IMG/VR virus record: IMGVR_UViG_3300025889_000815
Location: 1-26,527 of that record
Direction: 5' to 3' (one strand)
From: a virus
DNA: 26,527 nucleotides
The notes under the pieces were generated by a model. The model did not search any database, was not told the origin of the DNA, and worked only from the letters and a program-made list of their open reading frames with translations. Of this stretch, positions 1,986 to 26,448 are shown one piece after another. The first letter of the stretch is position 1; each line of letters begins with the position of its first letter. Position numbers and translations under genes: made by a program.

Positions 1986-2381
1986 TTAATCCAGCTCTTT
2001 AATCTTTTGCTTATACCTTTCGATTGCTTCTTCATAGTCTACTCTTGTTAATTTTACTACTATGTGCATTCTACTTTCTAGCTCATCAACTGTACCCTTA
2101 CCCCATTTATTTTCTACTCCTCTTGCTGCGAGAATCTGGTTACCGTTCAAGAAAGTATTACAATAATTACACTGACTATTAACATTTTTTTCATCGTATC
2201 GAATGCTGAGGTAACGTCTGCTGAATAGATGCCCAGCGTGAGTACTACCTCCAAAAGCTGGATATTCTTTACCACAACTGATACACTTGCAATTACCTTT
2301 ATAATCGCTGTCACGCTTTCTAATGTACTCGCTAAATACTTTGTCTAGCTTTTTCTTTAGTTTACTTATTGTAGTTGGCAT
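1986..2381 (-). CDS. ninG: NinG/Rap-like recombination nuclease
   Basis: This 131-residue protein matches the NinG (Rap) family of phage Holliday-junction and branched-DNA nucleases. The N-terminal helix KVFSEYIRKRD is followed by a zinc cluster CKCISC (C31, C33, C36). Next come H48 and H51 in THAGHLFSR, the signature RYDEKNVNSQCNYCN (C71 and C74) and an NG-N motif. The order Cys pair, AGH-x-x-SR, DE-x-NV, C-x2-C and GN is the diagnostic pattern, and the length is typical for short family members. In lambda the protein resolves recombination intermediates made by the phage recombinase. The start overlaps the cytosine methyltransferase gene by 20 bases. No phage recombinase is seen in the window, so it may act on host-generated joints or replication forks. 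Confidence 0.85.
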   Translation of the reverse strand: MPTTISKLKKKLDKVFSEYIRKRDSDYKGNCKCISCGKEYPAFGGSTHAGHLFSRRYLSIRYDEKNVNSQCNYCNTFLNGNQILAARGVENKWGKGTVDELESRMHIVVKLTRVDYEEAIERYKQKIKELD

Positions 2382-3684
2382 ATATCTTTTTAAATAGTTC
2401 CATTAATACATTTACTGTTATTGAGTTTCCAGCTTGTTTGTATAGTTGAGTATCTGATACATCTTTAACACTAAAAAAGTCCTCATCTTTAAATCCTTGC
2501 AACCTCCAACATTCAAGAGGAGTTAATCTTCTTATTTTATTTTGTTTTTTAATTAAAGTATTTTTAGTTAAATCTTCACCTCCAGTCTTACAGGCTGCTA
2601 AACAAGGTGCGTTACCATCTTTTCTAATTCTTAAACCCTCGTCATTTCTATAATCTGCAACCCATTCAATAGCTTGAGTATTACTTGTATCTAAGCAGTA
2701 AGAAGTTCCATCATTTTTCGCTTCATCTGTTCTAACTTCTTTTGAAACTTCTATTGTGTTGTCGGTCGGACATAGACTAGCGTTTGCTCTCAAACAATTA
2801 GCAACATCATCTTTTTTCTTTACTTCCCATTTAAATCCAGTTCCTTTTTCAGTATGCCTTTCCTTATGCTTAGTAAAAGATTGTATTAATTTATCACTTA
2901 AATAATATTTATCTTTTACCTCAATATATGTTCCATCACTAGGAATTTTATTATATCCAGCAACTAAACATCCACTATATTCAGAATCTTGATTTTTAAA
3001 TTTTGTTTTGTTTCTGCTGTTACAAATTCTTTTAATAGAATTTTCACTCAAACAATATTTACTTTTAGTATTATCTTGTAGCATATCTCCTAGCCTTAAC
3101 TTTAACTCGATAGGTTTAGGAAAGCTAAACTCTCTAAAGTCTTTAAAACCTAATATAAAAATTCTTTCTCTATTTTGTGGTATCCCATAGTCCTTAGTGT
3201 TTAATACTTGCCAATAGATGTGATAGCCTAAACCATCTTCAAAAACATCTAAGCTAATTTGTCCGTTTTGTGTGCCTCCACCATTACTAAGAATATCTAC
3301 AATAGTTTGGAATGTGTTACCCTTATCGTGACTTAATAATCCTTTGACATTTTCTAAAACAAATACTTTAGGTTGATTAATTTGTATAAACTCTGCAACA
3401 TTAAAGAACAATGTACCTCGAGCCTCCTCAAAACCTTTACGCTTACCAGCCATAGAAAATGATTGACAAGGAAATCCAGCAACATATAAGTCTAATTGTT
3501 CTACTTCTTTATGATTTCTAGTAGTTATGTCATTGTAGAATTTTTTTGGTTTATGTAATTGTCCAAATGATTGTCTTGCATACTTATCTATTTCACAAGC
3601 AAACAAAGATTCAAAGTCAATACCTAAATACTTTAAAGCCATCTCTGGAGCTCCAATACCACTAAAATCAGTTCCTACTTTCAT
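2362..3684 (-). CDS. DNA (cytosine-5) methyltransferase
   Basis: This complete 440-residue C5-MTase transfers a methyl group from S-adenosylmethionine to cytosine. Motif I is GTDFSGIGAP (about residues 4-13). Motif IV is GFPCQSFS with catalytic C73. Motif VI is ENV at 111-113, motif VIII is QNRERIFILG (170-179), motif IX is RLTPLECWRLQGF (386-398) and motif X is YKQAGNSI (415-422). The segment of about 190 residues between VIII and IX is a long target-recognition region, so the recognised sequence cannot be read from it. No restriction enzyme is adjacent, so this is an orphan enzyme, most likely protecting phage DNA from host restriction. Its ATG overlaps the preceding gene by 4 bases. Confidence 0.95.
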   Translation of the reverse strand: MKVGTDFSGIGAPEMALKYLGIDFESLFACEIDKYARQSFGQLHKPKKFYNDITTRNHKEVEQLDLYVAGFPCQSFSMAGKRKGFEEARGTLFFNVAEFIQINQPKVFVLENVKGLLSHDKGNTFQTIVDILSNGGGTQNGQISLDVFEDGLGYHIYWQVLNTKDYGIPQNRERIFILGFKDFREFSFPKPIELKLRLGDMLQDNTKSKYCLSENSIKRICNSRNKTKFKNQDSEYSGCLVAGYNKIPSDGTYIEVKDKYYLSDKLIQSFTKHKERHTEKGTGFKWEVKKKDDVANCLRANASLCPTDNTIEVSKEVRTDEAKNDGTSYCLDTSNTQAIEWVADYRNDEGLRIRKDGNAPCLAACKTGGEDLTKNTLIKKQNKIRRLTPLECWRLQGFKDEDFFSVKDVSDTQLYKQAGNSITVNVLMELFKKIYANYNK

Positions 3685-7751: not shown

Positions 7752-8489
7752 TTATAGTTGCATCATAACATTTATTGGTGTTTTTCCATTGTTTAGGATT
7801 ACACCACAAGCAATAGCTGGTTTCTTTCCAGCCTTAGCATAAGCCATAGCATAAGATTCGTGGTCAATACCACAACCTACTTGCATTCCAAAGATTCTAT
7901 ATTTAGCACCTACATAGTTCTCTGTGTAACATTGAGTATGTAAGTGACCTTGTACTGTGTTCATCATATCAGCTCTACACTTTGTTCTAGCTGTTCCAGC
8001 TTCTCCGTGTATATACTGAACATCATTTAAGACATATCTTTCTAGAAACTCCCAGTTAGGCACTTCTAATACATCTTGATAACTTTTTATCCATTTACTA
8101 GGTATAGCTGATGTTTGTGCCTTTCTCATAATCATTCTATCGTGATTACCTATCAAAACCTTAGCCTCTGGAAAAGCCTTATACCAATGTGCTATCTTGC
8201 TTACTGCTAGTTCTAGCTCATCTCCACCACCTAAACCATCTGCATCAGTCTCGTGATAGCTCGAATAGTGATTGTCTATTATATCTCCTATAAAGATTAC
8301 GTCAGTACACTTATAATGATGGTAGGTATCGAGACAAAACTCCAAGTATCCCTCAAGACAGAAAGGCTCGTGTAAATCTCCAATAACAAGAACATTGCTT
8401 TCTTCATTGTTTTGCTTTTTATAATGTCTATATTTATCTATCAGACTCCATTCGTCTGGTTTAAGTCTATACCTTTTAAAGTCTTTCAT
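7752..8489 (-). CDS. Calcineurin-like metallophosphoesterase
   Basis: This 245-residue protein has the full set of metallophosphoesterase motifs: GDLH (37-40) with LVIGDLHEPF, GDIID (68-72), GNHD (114-117) in VLIGNHDRMI, H161 in IHGEAG, and GHLH (181-184). These residues coordinate two metal ions and hydrolyse phosphomono- or diesters. There is no signal peptide or membrane segment, so a cytoplasmic enzyme is expected. Substrate is not readable. Phage members include Ser/Thr phosphatases such as lambda NinI as well as phosphodiesterases and nucleases. It is the last gene of the late block, overlapping the holin gene by 4 bases, an odd place for a DNA-metabolism enzyme. Confidence 0.85.
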   Translation of the reverse strand: MKDFKRYRLKPDEWSLIDKYRHYKKQNNEESNVLVIGDLHEPFCLEGYLEFCLDTYHHYKCTDVIFIGDIIDNHYSSYHETDADGLGGGDELELAVSKIAHWYKAFPEAKVLIGNHDRMIMRKAQTSAIPSKWIKSYQDVLEVPNWEFLERYVLNDVQYIHGEAGTARTKCRADMMNTVQGHLHTQCYTENYVGAKYRIFGMQVGCGIDHESYAMAYAKAGKKPAIACGVILNNGKTPINVMMQL

Positions 8490-15818: not shown

Positions 15819-16235
15819 CTATCTATTTATGTTAAATCTGTAATCTTGTGCTATACCATATAAACCAATAGAACCAGCAGAATCATCGTATAGCTCGTTC
15901 TGGTCTTGGTAAAATATCTTATCTACTACTACACCACTATATGTTCCACTAACGTAGTCTAGAGCTGTTCTAACGTGACCAGCTAGAGTTATCATATCAG
16001 CGTAGCTATTATGATAAATGCTTATCTGTACTCTAACATAGTCATATGTACTTACTCCGTTCTTAGTGTTGTTAGGCTCATCTGCAAACATCTGATAAGT
16101 AATATAAGGTAGCTTAACGTCAGTAGGGAAATTGTAACGACTAGGAAAGATTCTTAAGTTGCCACTTGTAGTAACTAAAGGAGCAACATTTGAGTCGTTG
16201 CTTAAAATATTATATATTACTTTTCCTATCTCCAT
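15819..16235 (-). CDS. Tail completion protein, DUF3168 / gp17-like
   Basis: This is a 138-residue protein. The N-terminal helix is IGKVIYNILSNDSNVAPLV, followed by NLRIFPSRYNFPTDVKLPYITYQMF. The centre is YDYVRVQISIYHNSYADMITLAGHVRTALDYVSG, and near the end comes a short strand with YGIAQDYRFNI. This order matches the DUF3168 family, the tail-completion proteins (SPP1 gp17) that bind the end of the tail tube next to the head connector. The start overlaps the gp10-like stop by one base. Position immediately before the tube gene fits. Confidence 0.85.
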   Translation of the reverse strand: MEIGKVIYNILSNDSNVAPLVTTSGNLRIFPSRYNFPTDVKLPYITYQMFADEPNNTKNGVSTYDYVRVQISIYHNSYADMITLAGHVRTALDYVSGTYSGVVVDKIFYQDQNELYDDSAGSIGLYGIAQDYRFNINR

Positions 16236-16663
16236 TACTTCATTCTTTTGTCAATGAGTTTTTTTATTTCTCCTATAACACTATTGATAGCTGTGTTACC
16301 TTTACTAGCAGCAGTCTTATCTAACATTCTAAGTCCTGGTATTCCTCTAAATCCATACTCTAAAAAGTAAAAATAAAATCCAGACTTCTCTTTACTAGCA
16401 AATGATTTTTTTACTCTTGGTCCTACATATACTGTAGGTGGTTTACCTTTTACGTTCTTACCATTTATAACAGCTAAAGACTTTTTAAGTTGTTTAGTTT
16501 CAACTGGCACAATAGACTTAAGCTCTTGTAAAATAGGCTTAGCAGCTTTTCGCATACCTTGTCTCAATAGTGTCTTATTTTTACTATCAGACATATTAAG
16601 TTTCTCTAAGTCCTTAATCAAAGAATTTAGCTCTCTCTCATCTATTTGCGCTGATACTATCAT
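16235..16663 (-). CDS. HK97 gp10-family tail/neck protein
   Basis: This 142-residue protein has the gp10-like pattern of phage neck proteins. It contains an N-terminal ISA-type strand (IVSAQIDERELNSLIKDLEKL), a helix LLRQGMRKAAKPILQELKSIVPVETKQLKKSL, and then YVGPRVKKSFASKEKSGFYFYFLEYG with a conserved FLEYGF-like element. The ending is basic and helical. The family joins the head connector to the tail. It lies between the connector genes and the DUF3168 gene, as in HK97 and SPP1. It overlaps both neighbours by 4 and 1 bases. Confidence 0.85.
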   Translation of the reverse strand: MIVSAQIDERELNSLIKDLEKLNMSDSKNKTLLRQGMRKAAKPILQELKSIVPVETKQLKKSLAVINGKNVKGKPPTVYVGPRVKKSFASKEKSGFYFYFLEYGFRGIPGLRMLDKTAASKGNTAINSVIGEIKKLIDKRMK

Positions 16664-16869
16664 TGCTCTGGAAAAGGGTTAATACCGTTATCTATTAATA
16701 TATTTATCCAATCTATTTCCTTAGTATATAAGTCTACATTGTCCCACTTAGTCTCTAAGCATTGATAGGTTTCTAGCACTCCATACGATACTATCGCATC
16801 ACTATCGTTCCATACGATGTAGTAACTCTTTACCTCTGGGTAGCATATTTCTGTTAATCTTAAACTCAT
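16660..16869 (-). CDS. Small unknown protein next to the spike gene
   Basis: This 69-residue protein begins MSLRLTEICYPEVKSYYIVWN and has two Cys (about 9 and 36), five Ile and three Trp in a fold that looks alpha/beta. The segment ETKWDNVDLYTKEIDWINILIDNGINPFPEQ ends it. I do not recognise the family. It sits between the spike-like and gp10-like genes with 1- and 4-base overlaps, so it is co-translated. It may chaperone the spike, as small genes after fibres often do, but this is only inferred. Confidence 0.5.
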   Translation of the reverse strand: MSLRLTEICYPEVKSYYIVWNDSDAIVSYGVLETYQCLETKWDNVDLYTKEIDWINILIDNGINPFPEQ

Positions 16870-18020
16870 TACGTTGTTAGTTGTGTTAGTTCGCTATCAC
16901 TCAAAGACTCATCAAATACTGCAAGTGATTTAAGTTTACCTTTAACATTTTTATCGGTCAGTAAATTGGATAAGTTCAAAACATTTAAACCAACTGGAAG
17001 ATTTGGACTAGCGACAGATGTACCTACTTCTTGACCATTGACAAATAATTTTAAATATGAAGAATTATAAGACAAAGCTATCTTATTGTATTGCTTAAAA
17101 TTAGATATGGTATGTGTTATTGAACTAGCATTTGTTGAATTTATTGTAAATGCTGTTAATTGATTATCAATAGCGTCTGAAAATTTAATTATTACTCTAT
17201 TGTTATTAGTGCCATCATTCATAGAGATAAAAAAATCAGGTTGAACTTCAAAAGCAGCTATCTCTGCATATAACACACCCTCTGTTGAGTTTATTAAGTC
17301 AGCACTACCAGCACCAGTTGCAGTCTCTGTAGCTCTTGTAACTGTACTACCCGTTAGTGAAGGTATGTACGATGTAGCGTAGGGTAAGTTTTCAACTTGT
17401 GCGCCAAATATATAAACACCACTTAAAGGAATATCATCTATCCATATTCCTTGTGTAGATGTGCCATTATCTCCCGACAAATAAAATCTTTGCCATTCTG
17501 TTGTTACTGTTAAAGTTTCAGTACCTATATCAATATTACTATCTTTTAATTTTACATTGATTGTACCTGATACACTTTTTAAATAAACTGACCTTGTTAC
17601 ATCTCCCGTTATGTTTAAACTACCATCAAATATACCATCAGTTCCATTACCTACTAATTTTGTAGCGTTATAAGTTCCATCAGGACTAAGAGTTTCTGTT
17701 GTATTATATGTAGGAGTTATGTTAGTTTGTTTTACCCAATCACTTTGACTAAAATCCTCACTATAAGGAAGAAAATTAGTAGAAGTAGGCTCTAACAATA
17801 TATGACCATTATCTCCATTACTATCATAGCTTATTCTTGGTACTCCAGTAGCTACATTAGAAACTAATCCACTAGAGTTAATTCTTGTAGCAGTTGAAGT
17901 TCTAGCAAAGTCAAAGTCCTCATAAGGCTCGTCTATTGGTGCTACGTTGTAAAGCTTACCAGCCTTGTAACCAGTAGGAGTTAAGATTATACTTGCTTTA
18001 TTTAATAGTCCGTCTGCCAT
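16869..18020 (-). CDS. Head/neck spike-like protein with LamG-like C-terminus
   Basis: This is a 383-residue virion surface protein. Residues 1-100 carry a motif known from phage spike and fibre proteins: FARTSTATRINSSGLVSNVATGVPR (positions about 38-62, shown in part), then LLEPTSTNFLPYSEDFSQSDW. A carbohydrate-binding-like beta domain follows (about 100-220) and ends in the repeat of the bait-like YIPSLTGSTVTRATETATG. The last 150 residues look like a LamG/concanavalin A-like fold (LYAEIAAFEVQPDFFIS, then YNKIALSYNSSYLKLFVNGQEVG, GKLKSLAVFDESLSDSELTQL). The gene is inside the connector block rather than at the tail tip, so it probably decorates the neck or head and may bind glycans. Confidence 0.65.
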   Translation of the reverse strand: MADGLLNKASIILTPTGYKAGKLYNVAPIDEPYEDFDFARTSTATRINSSGLVSNVATGVPRISYDSNGDNGHILLEPTSTNFLPYSEDFSQSDWVKQTNITPTYNTTETLSPDGTYNATKLVGNGTDGIFDGSLNITGDVTRSVYLKSVSGTINVKLKDSNIDIGTETLTVTTEWQRFYLSGDNGTSTQGIWIDDIPLSGVYIFGAQVENLPYATSYIPSLTGSTVTRATETATGAGSADLINSTEGVLYAEIAAFEVQPDFFISMNDGTNNNRVIIKFSDAIDNQLTAFTINSTNASSITHTISNFKQYNKIALSYNSSYLKLFVNGQEVGTSVASPNLPVGLNVLNLSNLLTDKNVKGKLKSLAVFDESLSDSELTQLTT

Positions 18021-19426
18021 TAGCTTATGTCGTTTAATGTTTGTAAGAATGCTTGGCTATCAGTAGTGTTCTCAACTACTCCTCCAGCAGCTACTACTCT
18101 TGTGTTTAATACGCTTATGTAATCGGCTGGTGTTGGGTCAAAGATACCACCATCAACAATAGTCCAACCATCGTCCTCTATTAAGCTAAATCTTGAAGCA
18201 TATGCAGACTCTGTAAATTGTGAGCCACCGAAGTTTATACTTATACCAGTATCTACTACACCAGCAGCCCAAGCTATTAGCGTTGCATCGTAGTTAGAAG
18301 TGCTTAGACCAGTAGCGTTCTGCATAAAGTTAGTAAAGTTAGAAACATTTGCAATAATCCAATCTGCTAGTGATTGGTCGAATAGGTCGCAGTTGTAAAA
18401 CATTTGTTGCATATTCTCAACGTTAGTAGTGTCCCAACTATATATGTCTCCGTTGAATTGATTACAATCATAGAACATCTGATACATTGTTTCTACATTA
18501 GAAGTATCCCAAGAATTTAAATCTTGGTCAAAACTTTTAGCCCCTCTAAATGTTCTATAGAAAGTCGTAACATTACTTACATCCCAACTATTTAAAGATT
18601 TATTAAATGTAAAAGAATTATAAAAGCATTGATATAAATTTGTCACAGTACTTATATCCCAATTACCTATCTCTCCATTAAAATTAGTACAGCTTAAAAA
18701 CATTGAACTAAAAGAAGTAGTAGATATAGTAGGAGCATCTGTAGCACTAGCATCTAAATTAGTACATCCATAGAAAGCAGCGTTAGTAGATAAGTCTAAA
18801 ACTCCCCATTGTTTTACGTCAAGCATTTTAAGCTTATCTCCAGCGTTATTAAATTGCCATCCTTGTAATGTTCCCTCTATGCTTATTTCGTATTGTCCAG
18901 CACTTGTATAAGTGTGTGTGACCTCTTGCTGATTGTAACTTGTTATTGTATCACTAGAGCCATCTCCCCAGTTTACTGTAGCGTTATAACTACCACCACT
19001 AACCAATGGCATCATAAATTGAGTATTTAAGCTAGAGCCACTAGAAGTGTTCTCTGTGTCAATAGTAAAGACAAATTGATTAGGAGCTGTCTGTGATAAA
19101 TCTACTACGTCATTCTTCTCTAATAAAAGCACCATAGCATCTTTACGACCTACTTCCTTTATGCTCTTAATAGAATAATTAGTAGAGCCATTAGAGATAA
19201 AGTATTGTGGACTTACTCCAATGTTTGTTCTGTATCTTATTAAGCATTCTATACGCTCGTCATTGATTAAGGCATCAGCATCGAAGTTAGTATTACCACC
19301 TTTGAAGTCAAAGTCTGCATAAATGGTAACGTAACTATTGTCAGATACTACTCTCTCGCCATAAGCGTTAGTCGAGTAAGTCTGTGTATATAGTTTTAAC
19401 TTTCTATCTAGTTTGCCTATAATCAT
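18020..19426 (-). CDS. Head-tail adaptor fused to DUF285/BspA-like repeat domain
   Basis: This 468-residue protein has three parts. Residues 1-106 are a head-tail adaptor domain of the SPP1 gp16 / head-tail joining family (IGKLDRKLKLYTQTYS, then AYGERV and YADFDFKGG, ending MVLLLEK), about the full length of a stand-alone member. Residues 115-200 contain a PKD-like beta domain with VNWGDGSSDTI and VTHTYTSAGQYEI. From about 215 to 365 come BspA/DUF285 repeats with Trp at 256, 281, 306, 331 and 356, an exact 25-residue period in the W-D-x-S-N-V form. A short C-terminal part with PADYISVLN follows. A single uninterrupted frame encodes all of it. It overlaps the connector gene by 4 bases. Confidence 0.75.
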   Translation of the reverse strand: MIIGKLDRKLKLYTQTYSTNAYGERVVSDNSYVTIYADFDFKGGNTNFDADALINDERIECLIRYRTNIGVSPQYFISNGSTNYSIKSIKEVGRKDAMVLLLEKNDVVDLSQTAPNQFVFTIDTENTSSGSSLNTQFMMPLVSGGSYNATVNWGDGSSDTITSYNQQEVTHTYTSAGQYEISIEGTLQGWQFNNAGDKLKMLDVKQWGVLDLSTNAAFYGCTNLDASATDAPTISTTSFSSMFLSCTNFNGEIGNWDISTVTNLYQCFYNSFTFNKSLNSWDVSNVTTFYRTFRGAKSFDQDLNSWDTSNVETMYQMFYDCNQFNGDIYSWDTTNVENMQQMFYNCDLFDQSLADWIIANVSNFTNFMQNATGLSTSNYDATLIAWAAGVVDTGISINFGGSQFTESAYASRFSLIEDDGWTIVDGGIFDPTPADYISVLNTRVVAAGGVVENTTDSQAFLQTLNDIS

Positions 19427-20052
19427 AGTTCAAGCAATCGGTAAGGAGTTAATAAGTGGTCTACCATTAAAGGTAATTCATTTACTTGAGTTCCCATAAC
19501 AACGTCCTGGCGATTTTCGAAGTAACGCCCTACAATTATGTAAATGCTTTGAATTATTGGAGCTGGAACGTCACTAGCTGTGCCACCTACTATAAACTCA
19601 ACCTCTACAGCGTTTGGTCTTTCGTAAGTGTTTGGAAAGTCTCCATCCTCCGATTCATATATCCTTCCTGGTCTTACCTTAGTATCTACATCGTATTGGT
19701 CAGTAGCTAAAGTTTGTAATGTATTGTCGGCATCGTAATACTTAATATGTGTAACACTAGCAACATCTCCCACTTGTAAGTCAATGTAAGGAGGAAACTC
19801 ATCGTAAAATATATTGTACGTCTGAGTCATTAGTCTACGTCTAGTGAACTCTTCTACAACTTGCGTAGCAACATTAATCAAAGACGTAATATAAGTATTG
19901 TCATCGTCATAGTCTGAGTCTATTCTTAAAAATGCTTTAGCCTCTGATAATGATATTACCGTAGACGTTGGAGCAGTCTTTAGAACTAACTTACCATAAG
20001 GCACATAGTCAGAGCCTCTTAATGTGTTAAAGTTGTAGTTATAGTATTCCAT
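19423..20052 (-). CDS. Head-tail connector protein, HK97 gp6-like
   Basis: This 209-residue protein contains the gp6/gp15-type connector fold. The segment LSEAKAFLRIDSDYDDDNTYITSLINVATQVVEEFTRRRL (given in part) is a long-helix region typical of adaptor proteins that bind the portal. It is followed by beta segments around VASVTHIKYYDADNTLQTL and a C-terminal helix. The N-terminus is extended by about 30 residues. Its position after the major capsid gene and before the adaptor fusion matches HK97-type order. The leader is separated from the capsid gene by a terminator-like hairpin, which may keep its level well below that of the capsid protein. Confidence 0.8.
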   Translation of the reverse strand: MEYYNYNFNTLRGSDYVPYGKLVLKTAPTSTVISLSEAKAFLRIDSDYDDDNTYITSLINVATQVVEEFTRRRLMTQTYNIFYDEFPPYIDLQVGDVASVTHIKYYDADNTLQTLATDQYDVDTKVRPGRIYESEDGDFPNTYERPNAVEVEFIVGGTASDVPAPIIQSIYIIVGRYFENRQDVVMGTQVNELPLMVDHLLTPYRLLEL

Positions 20053-21329: not shown

Positions 21330-22523
21330 TTAATATTTATTTTTTAAGATTCTTAAACGCATTTCATTGAGGGAGCGTTGTTTCAAATCTTCTTCTTCTT
21401 TTATACCCTCTAATTTTTCAGCCTCTAAACTTTCTTCTAGTTTTTTAGCTTCTTCTTTTTCTTGCCATTCTTGCATAGAACGTAAAGCAACTGAACTACT
21501 AGCAGCATCATAAGCTGGATATGTTACACTCGAGACATCGTAAAGCCTAGATACTTTGTTAATAGTTCTGTAGTTTGTTCCGTCTTTTACCTCCCAAGAG
21601 TCATCCTCTACAATAAATGCAAAAGATGATTGGTTAATAGTACCGTCTTTTAGTAATTCAATTAAGTCTCTTGACGTTGATACATTAGGATTTAATTTAG
21701 CTTCGTACTTTAAACCTTTCTCATCAACAGATAGTCTTAGCGTTCCGTTAGTCGTTCTAGCTAATGGTAAACCATCGTGATTAATTAAGAAACGTACATC
21801 GTCCTCTAAACGTCCTTCAAAAGCACCAGGAGCTATAAACTCTCTAAAGCCTCCTAAGTCATTAGACTCACTATTAAAGACTGCTCCGTAGCCTACTACT
21901 ACTGGATTCTCTCCGTCCATTCTTAGCTCTAAGTCTTGAACATTAAATGTTCTTATTTCTTTATTTTTCATATTTATAAATTTATCTTCTTTATTATCTA
22001 TCTTTTTTTTCAGTACAGAGATAACTTCTTTCATTCCACTTTCTCCTAGTGTTCCTATTACTCCCCATTTAATCTGAGCAACTACACCACCTACGTTAGA
22101 TAGATTAGGCTCTTTATCTCCTTTAAATTGTTTGCCATCTTCATAATGTCTAGCTATCCAAGCCTCTCGTTCTTTTATCCATTCAGTAATAGCTTCTGTC
22201 TCTTGACCATCTCTAGCTCTACCCCATAACATAAAAGCATCGTTTCCTCTTATGTTACCACCAGCTTTCCAAATGCTAGGATAATCTTCTTTTAGTTTTA
22301 AAGCGTAGTCATAATCAAACTGAGGATAGTTACTATTCTTTAAACTTACTTTTTTATCTTCATCCTTTGTAGGAAAGTTAGTGTCTCTTTCTTCTTCTAA
22401 TTGTAAAGAACAGATTGCTAACCTTTGGTCATCTTCATACTCCTCTACCATAGTATCATCAGCCATACATCTTTCGATGAACTCCTCGTTAGTCTCGTCT
22501 ATATTTTTAGTAGGTATCGGCAT
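21330..22523 (-). CDS. Prohead protease with long N-terminal extension
   Basis: Residues 185-397 are an HK97-type prohead protease: VVGYGAVFNSESNDLGGF, FLINHDGLPLARTTNGTLRL with the likely catalytic His, and INQSSFAFIVEDD with the likely catalytic Ser. Such proteases are usually about 200 residues. Here an extra 184 residues precede it. Residues 1-46 carry a motif with an F-I-E-R-C and ending in QRLAIC, which recurs at the start of phage head proteins. Residues about 68-175 carry PSIWKAGGNIRGNDAF, then TEWIKEREAWIARHYEDG and VAQIKWGVIGTLGESGM, also recurrent in phages. An in-frame ATG at 21971 (M185) stands exactly at the protease domain, so a shorter product may also be made. Confidence 0.85.
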   Translation of the reverse strand: MPIPTKNIDETNEEFIERCMADDTMVEEYEDDQRLAICSLQLEEERDTNFPTKDEDKKVSLKNSNYPQFDYDYALKLKEDYPSIWKAGGNIRGNDAFMLWGRARDGQETEAITEWIKEREAWIARHYEDGKQFKGDKEPNLSNVGGVVAQIKWGVIGTLGESGMKEVISVLKKKIDNKEDKFINMKNKEIRTFNVQDLELRMDGENPVVVGYGAVFNSESNDLGGFREFIAPGAFEGRLEDDVRFLINHDGLPLARTTNGTLRLSVDEKGLKYEAKLNPNVSTSRDLIELLKDGTINQSSFAFIVEDDSWEVKDGTNYRTINKVSRLYDVSSVTYPAYDAASSSVALRSMQEWQEKEEAKKLEESLEAEKLEGIKEEEDLKQRSLNEMRLRILKNKY

Positions 22524-25325: not shown

Positions 25326-25798
25326 TAGTCAAAGAAATTAAAATCGTCAGTCCTTTCCTCATCTTGTTCTGGCATACTAAGAGATGCCCTTGAGCTTGGA
25401 GTAAATCCAAATTGCGTAGCAATTTTCATTGCATTCTGTAAAGCGTTTTGCATTACCTTGTACTTTGGTGCAATCTTACTAGACCTCAACCTACCATCTT
25501 TGTCAACTGTCTGCTCTGTAAAGTTGCCTTGTAACTCTTGAGCTATCTCTCGGTAAATACCTATCTCATTACAATAGGCTGCTAAGATTGATAAGTCAGT
25601 TAGATGCAACATCTTAATATTGGCTAGTTCGTTAGTGACTAAGTTCCATTCATCAGCACCTTGTTTATTGAGAAAGGAGGGAGCCGAAGGCATACTAACA
25701 ACTTGAGAAGTTTCCATTTCATTTCCCACTAACCTGGATTTCTCTAGTGTGCCTTTTAGCTCCTTTACTTTTGTTGGTATTTTTTTTCTCCCTCTCAA
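25325..25798 (-). CDS. Terminase small subunit, P27 family
   Basis: This 157-residue DNA-binding protein recognises the packaging site. The start MRGRKKIPTKVKELKGTLEKSR is typical of P27-type small terminases (RGRKP-x-P...K-x-L-x-G). It is followed by a helical core SAPSFLNKQGADEWNLVTNELA, then LHLTDLSILAAYCNEIG. The C-terminus contains IATQFGFTPSSRASL, also characteristic (G-F/L-T-P-x-S-R). It overlaps the methyltransferase by 4 bases and the large subunit by 1 base. Confidence 0.92.
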   Translation of the reverse strand: MRGRKKIPTKVKELKGTLEKSRLVGNEMETSQVVSMPSAPSFLNKQGADEWNLVTNELANIKMLHLTDLSILAAYCNEIGIYREIAQELQGNFTEQTVDKDGRLRSSKIAPKYKVMQNALQNAMKIATQFGFTPSSRASLSMPEQDEERTDDFNFFD

Positions 25799-26448
25799 AA
25801 TATTCTAGTTTGTGCTTGGTGGTTTTTTATTCTCTTGATAGCGTTGTCGTAGTATTCTTTGTCAAGCTCATAGCCAGTTAAATCGTAACCTAAGTTGTGA
25901 CAAGCTATGGCTATTGAGCCACTACCTAAGTGCGTGTCAAGTATCTTATCTCCTTCCTTTGCATAGTTCATTAGTAGCCACTCGTATAACTTGACTGGTT
26001 TCTGTGTTGGGTGTATTCTTATGCTAGGCTTACCAACTCCTTGTATTTTTTGACTTTTAAATCCGTATCTATTGCCATCCCACATATACTCAAAATGTTT
26101 AGCTAATCCATTTATACTACAATAAGCTAACTCTCCACTACTTCTATTATCGTGGTGATTTAATTTGTTCCAATATATAAAACCTTTACAAGTAGGTAAT
26201 TTATCAGTCATATAATTCCATCCCCATATTATTTGATTTTTACTTATTCTTTGTAATTCATCAAAATACTCTTGGGTTGGTGTTTGTGTATCCCAATTTT
26301 TTTTTGAAAATTTATCCCTACCCAAACTACCAGTCTTTGCTATATTTAAACCATAAGGAGGGTCTACTATAGCAAGGTCAAATTGATTGTCTTGCATTAG
26401 CTTCATAGCTTCCAAACAATCTTGGTTATGTATTTTATTTATATCCAT
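25795..26448 (-). CDS. DNA adenine-type methyltransferase (N6/N4, beta order)
   Basis: This is a 217-residue S-adenosylmethionine-dependent DNA methyltransferase. The catalytic motif DPPYGLN is at 29-35. The AdoMet-binding motif LDTHLGSGSIAIAC and the following GYDLTGYELDKEYYDNAIKRI lie near the C-terminus (about 170-205). The order catalytic motif, variable region, FxGxG-like motif is the beta class. DPPY rather than SPPY points to N6-adenine. The glycine motif is HLGSG instead of FxGSG. It overlaps the small terminase gene by 4 bases, so it is part of the packaging operon. Target sequence is unknown. Its role is probably protection from host restriction or marking of packaged DNA. Confidence 0.88.
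   Translation of the reverse strand: MDINKIHNQDCLEAMKLMQDNQFDLAIVDPPYGLNIAKTGSLGRDKFSKKNWDTQTPTQEYFDELQRISKNQIIWGWNYMTDKLPTCKGFIYWNKLNHHDNRSSGELAYCSINGLAKHFEYMWDGNRYGFKSQKIQGVGKPSIRIHPTQKPVKLYEWLLMNYAKEGDKILDTHLGSGSIAIACHNLGYDLTGYELDKEYYDNAIKRIKNHQAQTRIF

Follow-up and report, generated by a model that had tools for sequence, protein, structure and literature searches.

A phage head-closure gene fused in frame to a PKD and DUF285 repeat extension that belongs to an optional cassette

The window (the whole stretch of DNA that was analysed, 26,527 nucleotides of the IMG/VR record IMGVR_UViG_3300025889_000815) contains genes for terminase, portal, prohead protease, capsid, adaptor, the fusion protein studied here, a LamG protein, a 69-aa protein, an HK97-gp10-like protein, terminator, tail tube and tape measure, in an order that, judged from the sequence, is that of a canonical siphophage structural operon. 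The genes around the fusion gene overlap by 1-4 nt and are therefore probably translationally coupled. The fusion gene itself is a 468-aa ORF without internal stop on the minus strand (19426..18020), encoding, from the N-terminus, a head-closure domain followed by a PKD domain, by a DUF285 solenoid of 25-residue repeats and by a helical tail of 41 aa. The single-frame fusion proposed in a preliminary description, made from the letters of the DNA, was confirmed in this way, coordinates included. The features of the locus are:

19423-20052, minus strand: adaptor (gp15/gp6-type), context gene; PF05135, PHROG head-tail adaptor
19109..19426, minus strand: stopper (head-closure) domain, fusion residues 1-106; PF05521, PHROG Hc1, Foldseek, standalone 112-aa homologues
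19052..19108, minus strand: flexible linker, residues 107-125; pLDDT <50 at 106-114
18869..19051, minus strand: PKD-like spacer domain, residues 126-186; PF00801 at 133-185, pLDDT ~94
18284..18733, minus strand: DUF285/BspA-like 25-residue solenoid repeats with a hypervariable face, residues 232-381; PF03382, lag-25 period
18146..18283, minus strand: solenoid C-terminal cap, residues 382-427; pLDDT mostly 94-98
18023..18145, minus strand: C-terminal helical tail of two helices, residues 428-468, a probable LamG socket; model, co-occurrence, motif
16869..18020, minus strand: LamG adhesin gene, 383 aa, with a conserved N-terminal anchor and a hypervariable body; PF13385, 34.1 bits
16660..16869, minus strand: 69-aa partner protein that accompanies the DUF285 cassette, found with every complete cassette; model pLDDT 90
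16235..16663, minus strand: HK97-gp10-like tail completion protein, context gene beyond the cassette; PF04883, PHROG 5

The domains of the fusion protein were matched with very different strength. The DUF285 profile PF03382 covered residues 223-375 with 143.5 bits (E 3e-42), and self-identity at a lag of 25 residues reached 37% (residues 232-380), whereas 2000 shuffles gave no more than 22% at any lag. The 25-residue BspA-like repeats of the preliminary description are thus well founded, and the Trp positions that it gave (256, 281, 306, 331 and 356) are exact. Its PKD-like segment was also recovered, at residues 133-185, with a PF00801 score barely over the cut-off (23.6 vs 23.5). At the N-terminus, Phage_HCP (PF05521) matched residues 1-97 with 27.7 bits, barely above the cut-off of 25, and the same domain matched the PHROG head closure family Hc1 (PHROG 25, E 9e-6). 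An AlphaFold model of the 468-aa protein, built with an alignment of 72 rows taken from the window and the loci, had a mean pLDDT of 86, with values of ~50-80 for the stopper, mostly >90 for the PKD domain and the solenoid, <50 for the linker at 106-114 and ~70 for the two C-terminal helices. No long helix was found in this model between residues 107 and 375.

When the model was compared with the PDB by Foldseek, the leading matches of the N-terminal domain were the T1 stopper, the Pam3 neck, FCWL1 and SPP1 gp16 (7z4w), followed by GTA, R4C and lambda neck proteins, with probabilities of 0.9-1.0 (near 1 for the top ones) and E-values of only 0.06-2. Residues 1-106 were read as a stopper because neck and stopper proteins came first in this search. 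A connector fold, as the preliminary description had predicted for these 106 residues, was therefore found through matches to solved stoppers. Gene order agrees with it, as the series adaptor, stopper, gp10-like, terminator matches that of SPP1 gp16-type stoppers, with the cassette as its sole interruption, and runs uninterrupted in one relative (L080) and in a sister clade. The N-terminal domain is thus a gp16-type stopper and not a gp15-type adaptor. Of the name "gp16-type head-tail adaptor" used before, the first part was upheld by PF05521 and Hc1, whereas the second belongs to the separate PF05135 gene at 19423-20052. The domain shares its family, gene position and predicted fold with SPP1 gp16, and in the sister clade the protein has, at 112 aa, the length usual for stoppers; short stoppers differ in having no equivalent of the 356-residue C-terminal extension. 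The view that a complete connector subunit has been joined to a BspA-like arm is supported, and exactly this domain has natural homologues that stand alone. PHROG 10356, a virion protein of 852 aa that can be aligned to the stopper, raises the possibility that this is not the only extended stopper. When 50,697 phage records were searched by tblastn with just the stopper domain, no match was obtained.

The copy number proposed before, about 12 subunits and up to 12 rods, had to be abandoned. The SPP1 connector has the stoichiometry gp6_12 gp15_12 gp16_6 (PMC9701221), and the stoppers of R4C (PMC10276861) and JBD30 (PMC11445458) are hexameric too. As the homologous structures are hexamers, six arms are to be expected and not twelve, so by analogy the fusion protein would form a hexameric ring with up to six arms.

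The fusion was found in ~90 other IMG/VR contigs, with full-length products of 468-470 or 429-436 aa and identities of 50-100%; on these grounds a frameshift or a sequencing or assembly artefact was rejected as its source. The phages that carry it are uncultured and probably marine, and no cultured member was found. Three architectures were distinguished. In the first, a fusion of 468-470 aa is followed by one or two LamG genes and the 69-aa gene. In the second, a fusion of 429-436 aa without the last ~40 residues is followed by a small gene of 75-81 aa and no LamG gene. In the third, found in a sister group of 23 contigs (L153-L174, L193) and in L080, a bare 112-aa stopper is followed directly by gp10, with no small gene. 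The last part of the solenoid cap is common to all fusion architectures. The extension therefore belongs to a three-gene unit that the preliminary description had missed: an optional cassette composed of fusion residues 113-468 and the two downstream genes, for the lectin-like LamG adhesin and the small partner protein.

A sister-clade record of 26,492 bp (L175/L176) is colinear with the window across the structural region, the cassette being the only part absent there. Its identity to the window is 87% for TerL, 95% for the portal, 87% for the adaptor, 62% for the stopper and 85% for gp10, compared to 34-40% for the hub, 33% for the tail-tip protein and 99% for a phosphoesterase. Twelve sister-clade records and that of L080 were searched for DUF285 and LamG elsewhere in the sequence, and no match was found. 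That a tail-tip receptor-binding protein had been relocated to the neck was rejected, since the cassette-less relatives keep the same hub and tail-tip genes; for the same reason the cassette is regarded as an addition.

In the tree, L080 sits within the cassette-bearing clade and yet lacks exactly the cassette, in frame, between flanks up to 96% (upstream) and 94% (downstream) identical to those of cassette-bearing relatives. Comparison with it places the cassette boundary at fusion residues 110-112. Its stopper ends in VVDLEQ; here GAGCAATGATAG is identical to the final codons of the 69-aa gene plus the gp10 start, so that both the reading frame and the overlap survive. The junction shows no long repeat, and its pattern was found in no other IMG/VR contig. 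L080 is thus an apparent precise deletion of the cassette, known from a single contig that could conceivably be misassembled. The tree is unrooted, and one gain plus one loss fits it as well as two losses; it is equally compatible with a sister group that never had the cassette and with one that lost it.

Other differences were seen among these genomes. Alleles of the gp10-like gene (window 16235-16663, and relatives) encode 142, 159 or ~175-177 aa and differ at the N-terminus; both clades contain a mixture of them. In the prohead protease, the region N-terminal to the conserved S78 protease domain is variable, the protein being 397 aa long in the window (21330-22523), 373 aa in L080 (1040-2161) and 560 aa in L175 (4815-6497). 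The phosphoesterase, a calcineurin-like protein encoded beside the lysis genes (window 7752-8489; L176 3775-4512), is 99% identical between the clades, compared to 33-60% for its neighbours. The window has two DNA methyltransferase genes (2362-3684 and 25795-26448), and different methylase-like ORFs occupy the matching regions in L175, L176, L177 and L178. In L022 (12223-12650), two ORFs of 63 and 75 aa take the place of a single major tail tube gene, probably through a sequencing error or a disruption of the gene.

The tail of the fusion and the LamG gene go together. In every complete case, the tail is present if and only if a LamG gene follows, and five apparent exceptions proved to be 5'-truncated ORFs with intact tails. 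LamG proteins range from 326 to 800 aa, and their first 36 residues have a mean identity of 90%, compared to 32% for the body, which falls to 21% identity between pairs with identical stoppers. Near the C-terminus of the tail, a motif R[VI]xx[DA][GSN]Gx[FMVI]E was recognized. It was present in 68 of the 1454 distinct ORFs of the gathered loci, a LamG start lying within 8 nt after 63 of them, a count biased by the gathering of the loci partly through LamG genes; in the other five, the contig ends there or the LamG start is called slightly upstream. None of the 1454 ORFs combined the motif with a non-LamG neighbour. A profile of the C-terminal tail was too narrow for distant sockets, which were found by a search based on the anchor. 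Two further carriers of the motif bear no relation to the stopper: one is a protein of 199 aa in the cultured Nonlabens phage P12024L, the other a family of 76-82 aa (L221-L225). At the sites in the window (18023-18145), L141 (5953-6552), L221, L223, L224 and L225, the N-terminus of the next LamG protein reads LILTPNGYKAGKLYS. In L057, L059 and L060, the fusion gene is separated from the 69-aa gene by two LamG genes in a row (775-800 and 390-406 aa), of which the second differs at its N-terminus. As judged from this co-occurrence, the tail and the LamG protein are probably a portable docking pair, in which the tail would bind the LamG product.

The 69-aa protein was found in every complete cassette and in no cassette-less genome or locus. 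Its fold was modelled with confidence, and the model had no informative structural match. Relatives supported by BLAST lie directly after DUF285 genes twice in L077. In unrelated phages, DUF285 genes are followed by small ORFs that resemble it in a Y-I-x-W-x-D ... YG pattern (L077 7680-7901 and 9728-10072; L226 1758-1964), the likeness of the one in L226 having been judged by eye only. The simplest guess is that the 69-aa protein helps the solenoid to fold or caps it.

Selection statistics were pooled over 40 distinct 468-aa genes. The stopper had a pN/pS of 0.11, and the linker and PKD domain were similarly constrained (dN/dS 0.07). Within the solenoid, entropy was concentrated at repeat positions 7, 9, 10, 11, 13, 14 and 16 (means of 1.2-2.7 bits) on a nearly invariant framework of Trp, Phe and Asn (position-mean permutation p ~5e-5). 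When the variable positions were chosen on two repeats and pN/pS was measured on the other two, values of 0.91-0.94 were obtained for the variable face compared to 0.23-0.28 for the framework. In 72 pairs with zero amino-acid change in the stopper, the mean dN of DUF285 was 0.167. These data suggest positive selection on the solenoid face, and no more than suggest it, because pN/pS was not above 1 in the ten least-diverged gene pairs. The evolutionary signatures support an exposed binding arm. A diversity-generating retroelement behind the variable face was rejected, as no reverse transcriptase domain was present among the window ORFs scanned.

The reading that we prefer, with a probability of roughly two in three, is a neck-mounted adhesion device that works like the neck passage structure (NPS) of lactococcal phages and is anchored by fusion to the stopper. 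The stopper would grow an adhesion arm from its C-terminus, six copies forming a ring between adaptor and tail, and each arm would consist of a flexible linker, a PKD spacer, a short DUF285 solenoid with a variable face and the helical tail. The LamG protein, whose gene comes next and overlaps, would be captured by the tail, with the 69-aa protein assisting in folding or capping, and from the neck the arms would attach to glycans or proteins on the bacterial surface, supplementing the tail-tip machinery. We infer that the arm is displayed outwards and binds a ligand; outward display is argued for by the ~360 residues per subunit, which are unlikely to fit in the DNA channel, and by phage 812, in which both stopper termini touch proteins on the outer side of the neck (PMC12886913). 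For adhesion there is the precedent of the lactococcal NPS, an optional device that carries variable CBMs and binds host cells (PMC6669499). Against it, the neck-fibre CBM of A-1(L) failed to bind its host (PMC10966104), and the NPS of TP901-1 is non-essential (PMC4493119).

By its solenoid geometry, such an arm would be short, of the order of 10 nm, and not a long whisker, so that its reach from the neck would be limited. In a more specific version, which we hold only tentatively and at somewhat under even odds, the ring would be a plug-in adhesin port of six LRR-like arms, each with a single hypervariable face as its diversified binding surface on a fixed scaffold and, at its end, a portable helical socket for interchangeable LamG adhesins from the neighbouring gene, a socket reused in other phages by unrelated virion proteins.

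An arm displayed at the neck could instead be mainly structural, bracing the junction of stopper, adaptor and tail or aiding assembly. The A-1(L) result would fit such a role, as would the neck decoration proteins of phage 812, which probably reinforce junctions (PMC12886913), and the Ig domain of the R4C adaptor, judged by its authors as unlikely to act in adsorption (PMC10276861). However, the sister clade and L080 manage without the arm, and a brace needs neither a variable solenoid face nor a variable LamG body, so we consider this role unlikely. Slightly less likely still is an adhesive arm whose target is not the host receptor, and which would bind particles, mucus-like polysaccharide or algal surfaces where the hosts live; DUF285, PKD and LamG are generic surface and glycan-binding folds, and the cassette is optional while the tail tip is retained, but the strong variation of the face between phages with identical stoppers looks more like the tracking of varying host surfaces. 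A product split by linker proteolysis or internal initiation, with stopper and adhesin acting apart, would find some basis in the predicted flexibility of residues 106-114 and in the 112-aa stoppers found elsewhere, but is very improbable given a frame kept in ~90 contigs, the lack of any stop or start near the junction except M137/M138 within the PKD domain, and the stopper-like constraint on linker and PKD.

The proposed adhesion device was compared with known systems. Like it, the NPS of lactococcal 936/P335 phages sits at the neck, is optional, only some phages of a group having it, and combines a conserved base with ends that vary and bind carbohydrate (PMC6669499, PMC4493119, PMC10747895). 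In contrast, the NPS is a protein of its own at portal/adaptor level, in which the N-terminal collar domain is BppU-like and a trimeric coiled-coil fibre lies between base and CBM, whereas the base of the fusion is the stopper itself, followed by PKD and solenoid without predicted coiled coil. As the base domain differs and the coiled coil is absent, the device is not an NPS, although by analogy it probably works like one. Outward accessory domains on neck connectors are also found in the stopper and neck decorations of phage 812 and in the Ig-like domain of the R4C adaptor (PMC12886913, PMC10276861), but these have neither variable-face repeat adhesins nor a link to a LamG gene. The neck fibres or whiskers of T4, phi29, XM1 and A-1(L) also radiate from the neck (PMC10966104, PMC10491603), but are separate proteins on the collar or neck and not stopper fusions. 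BspA/DUF285 proteins of phages and Bacteroidota share the repeat family, and those of L077 the small gene that follows.

The statement that BspA repeats were not known from connectors agrees with the literature found, but DUF285 proteins themselves are common in phages (113 records); residues 1-92 of the fusion were covered by none of the phage DUF285 matches listed. A stopper fused to a repeat adhesin was not found in the open-access literature. Of the "new class of neck whisker" envisaged at first, the anchoring by the stopper would be the new part, whereas a neck adhesion device is of a known kind.

In the phages compared, neck appendages are separate proteins; here, an obligate and usually minimal connector subunit would be the base of the arm. 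The pair of tail and LamG protein, if real, would provide a reusable docking rule for the annotation of adhesins in these phages. Nature has supplied matched relatives with and without the cassette, one of them by an apparent precise deletion, and therefore two questions become testable in this family: the part that neck appendages play in adsorption, and the way in which a phage gains a receptor-binding site while its tail tip stays as it is.
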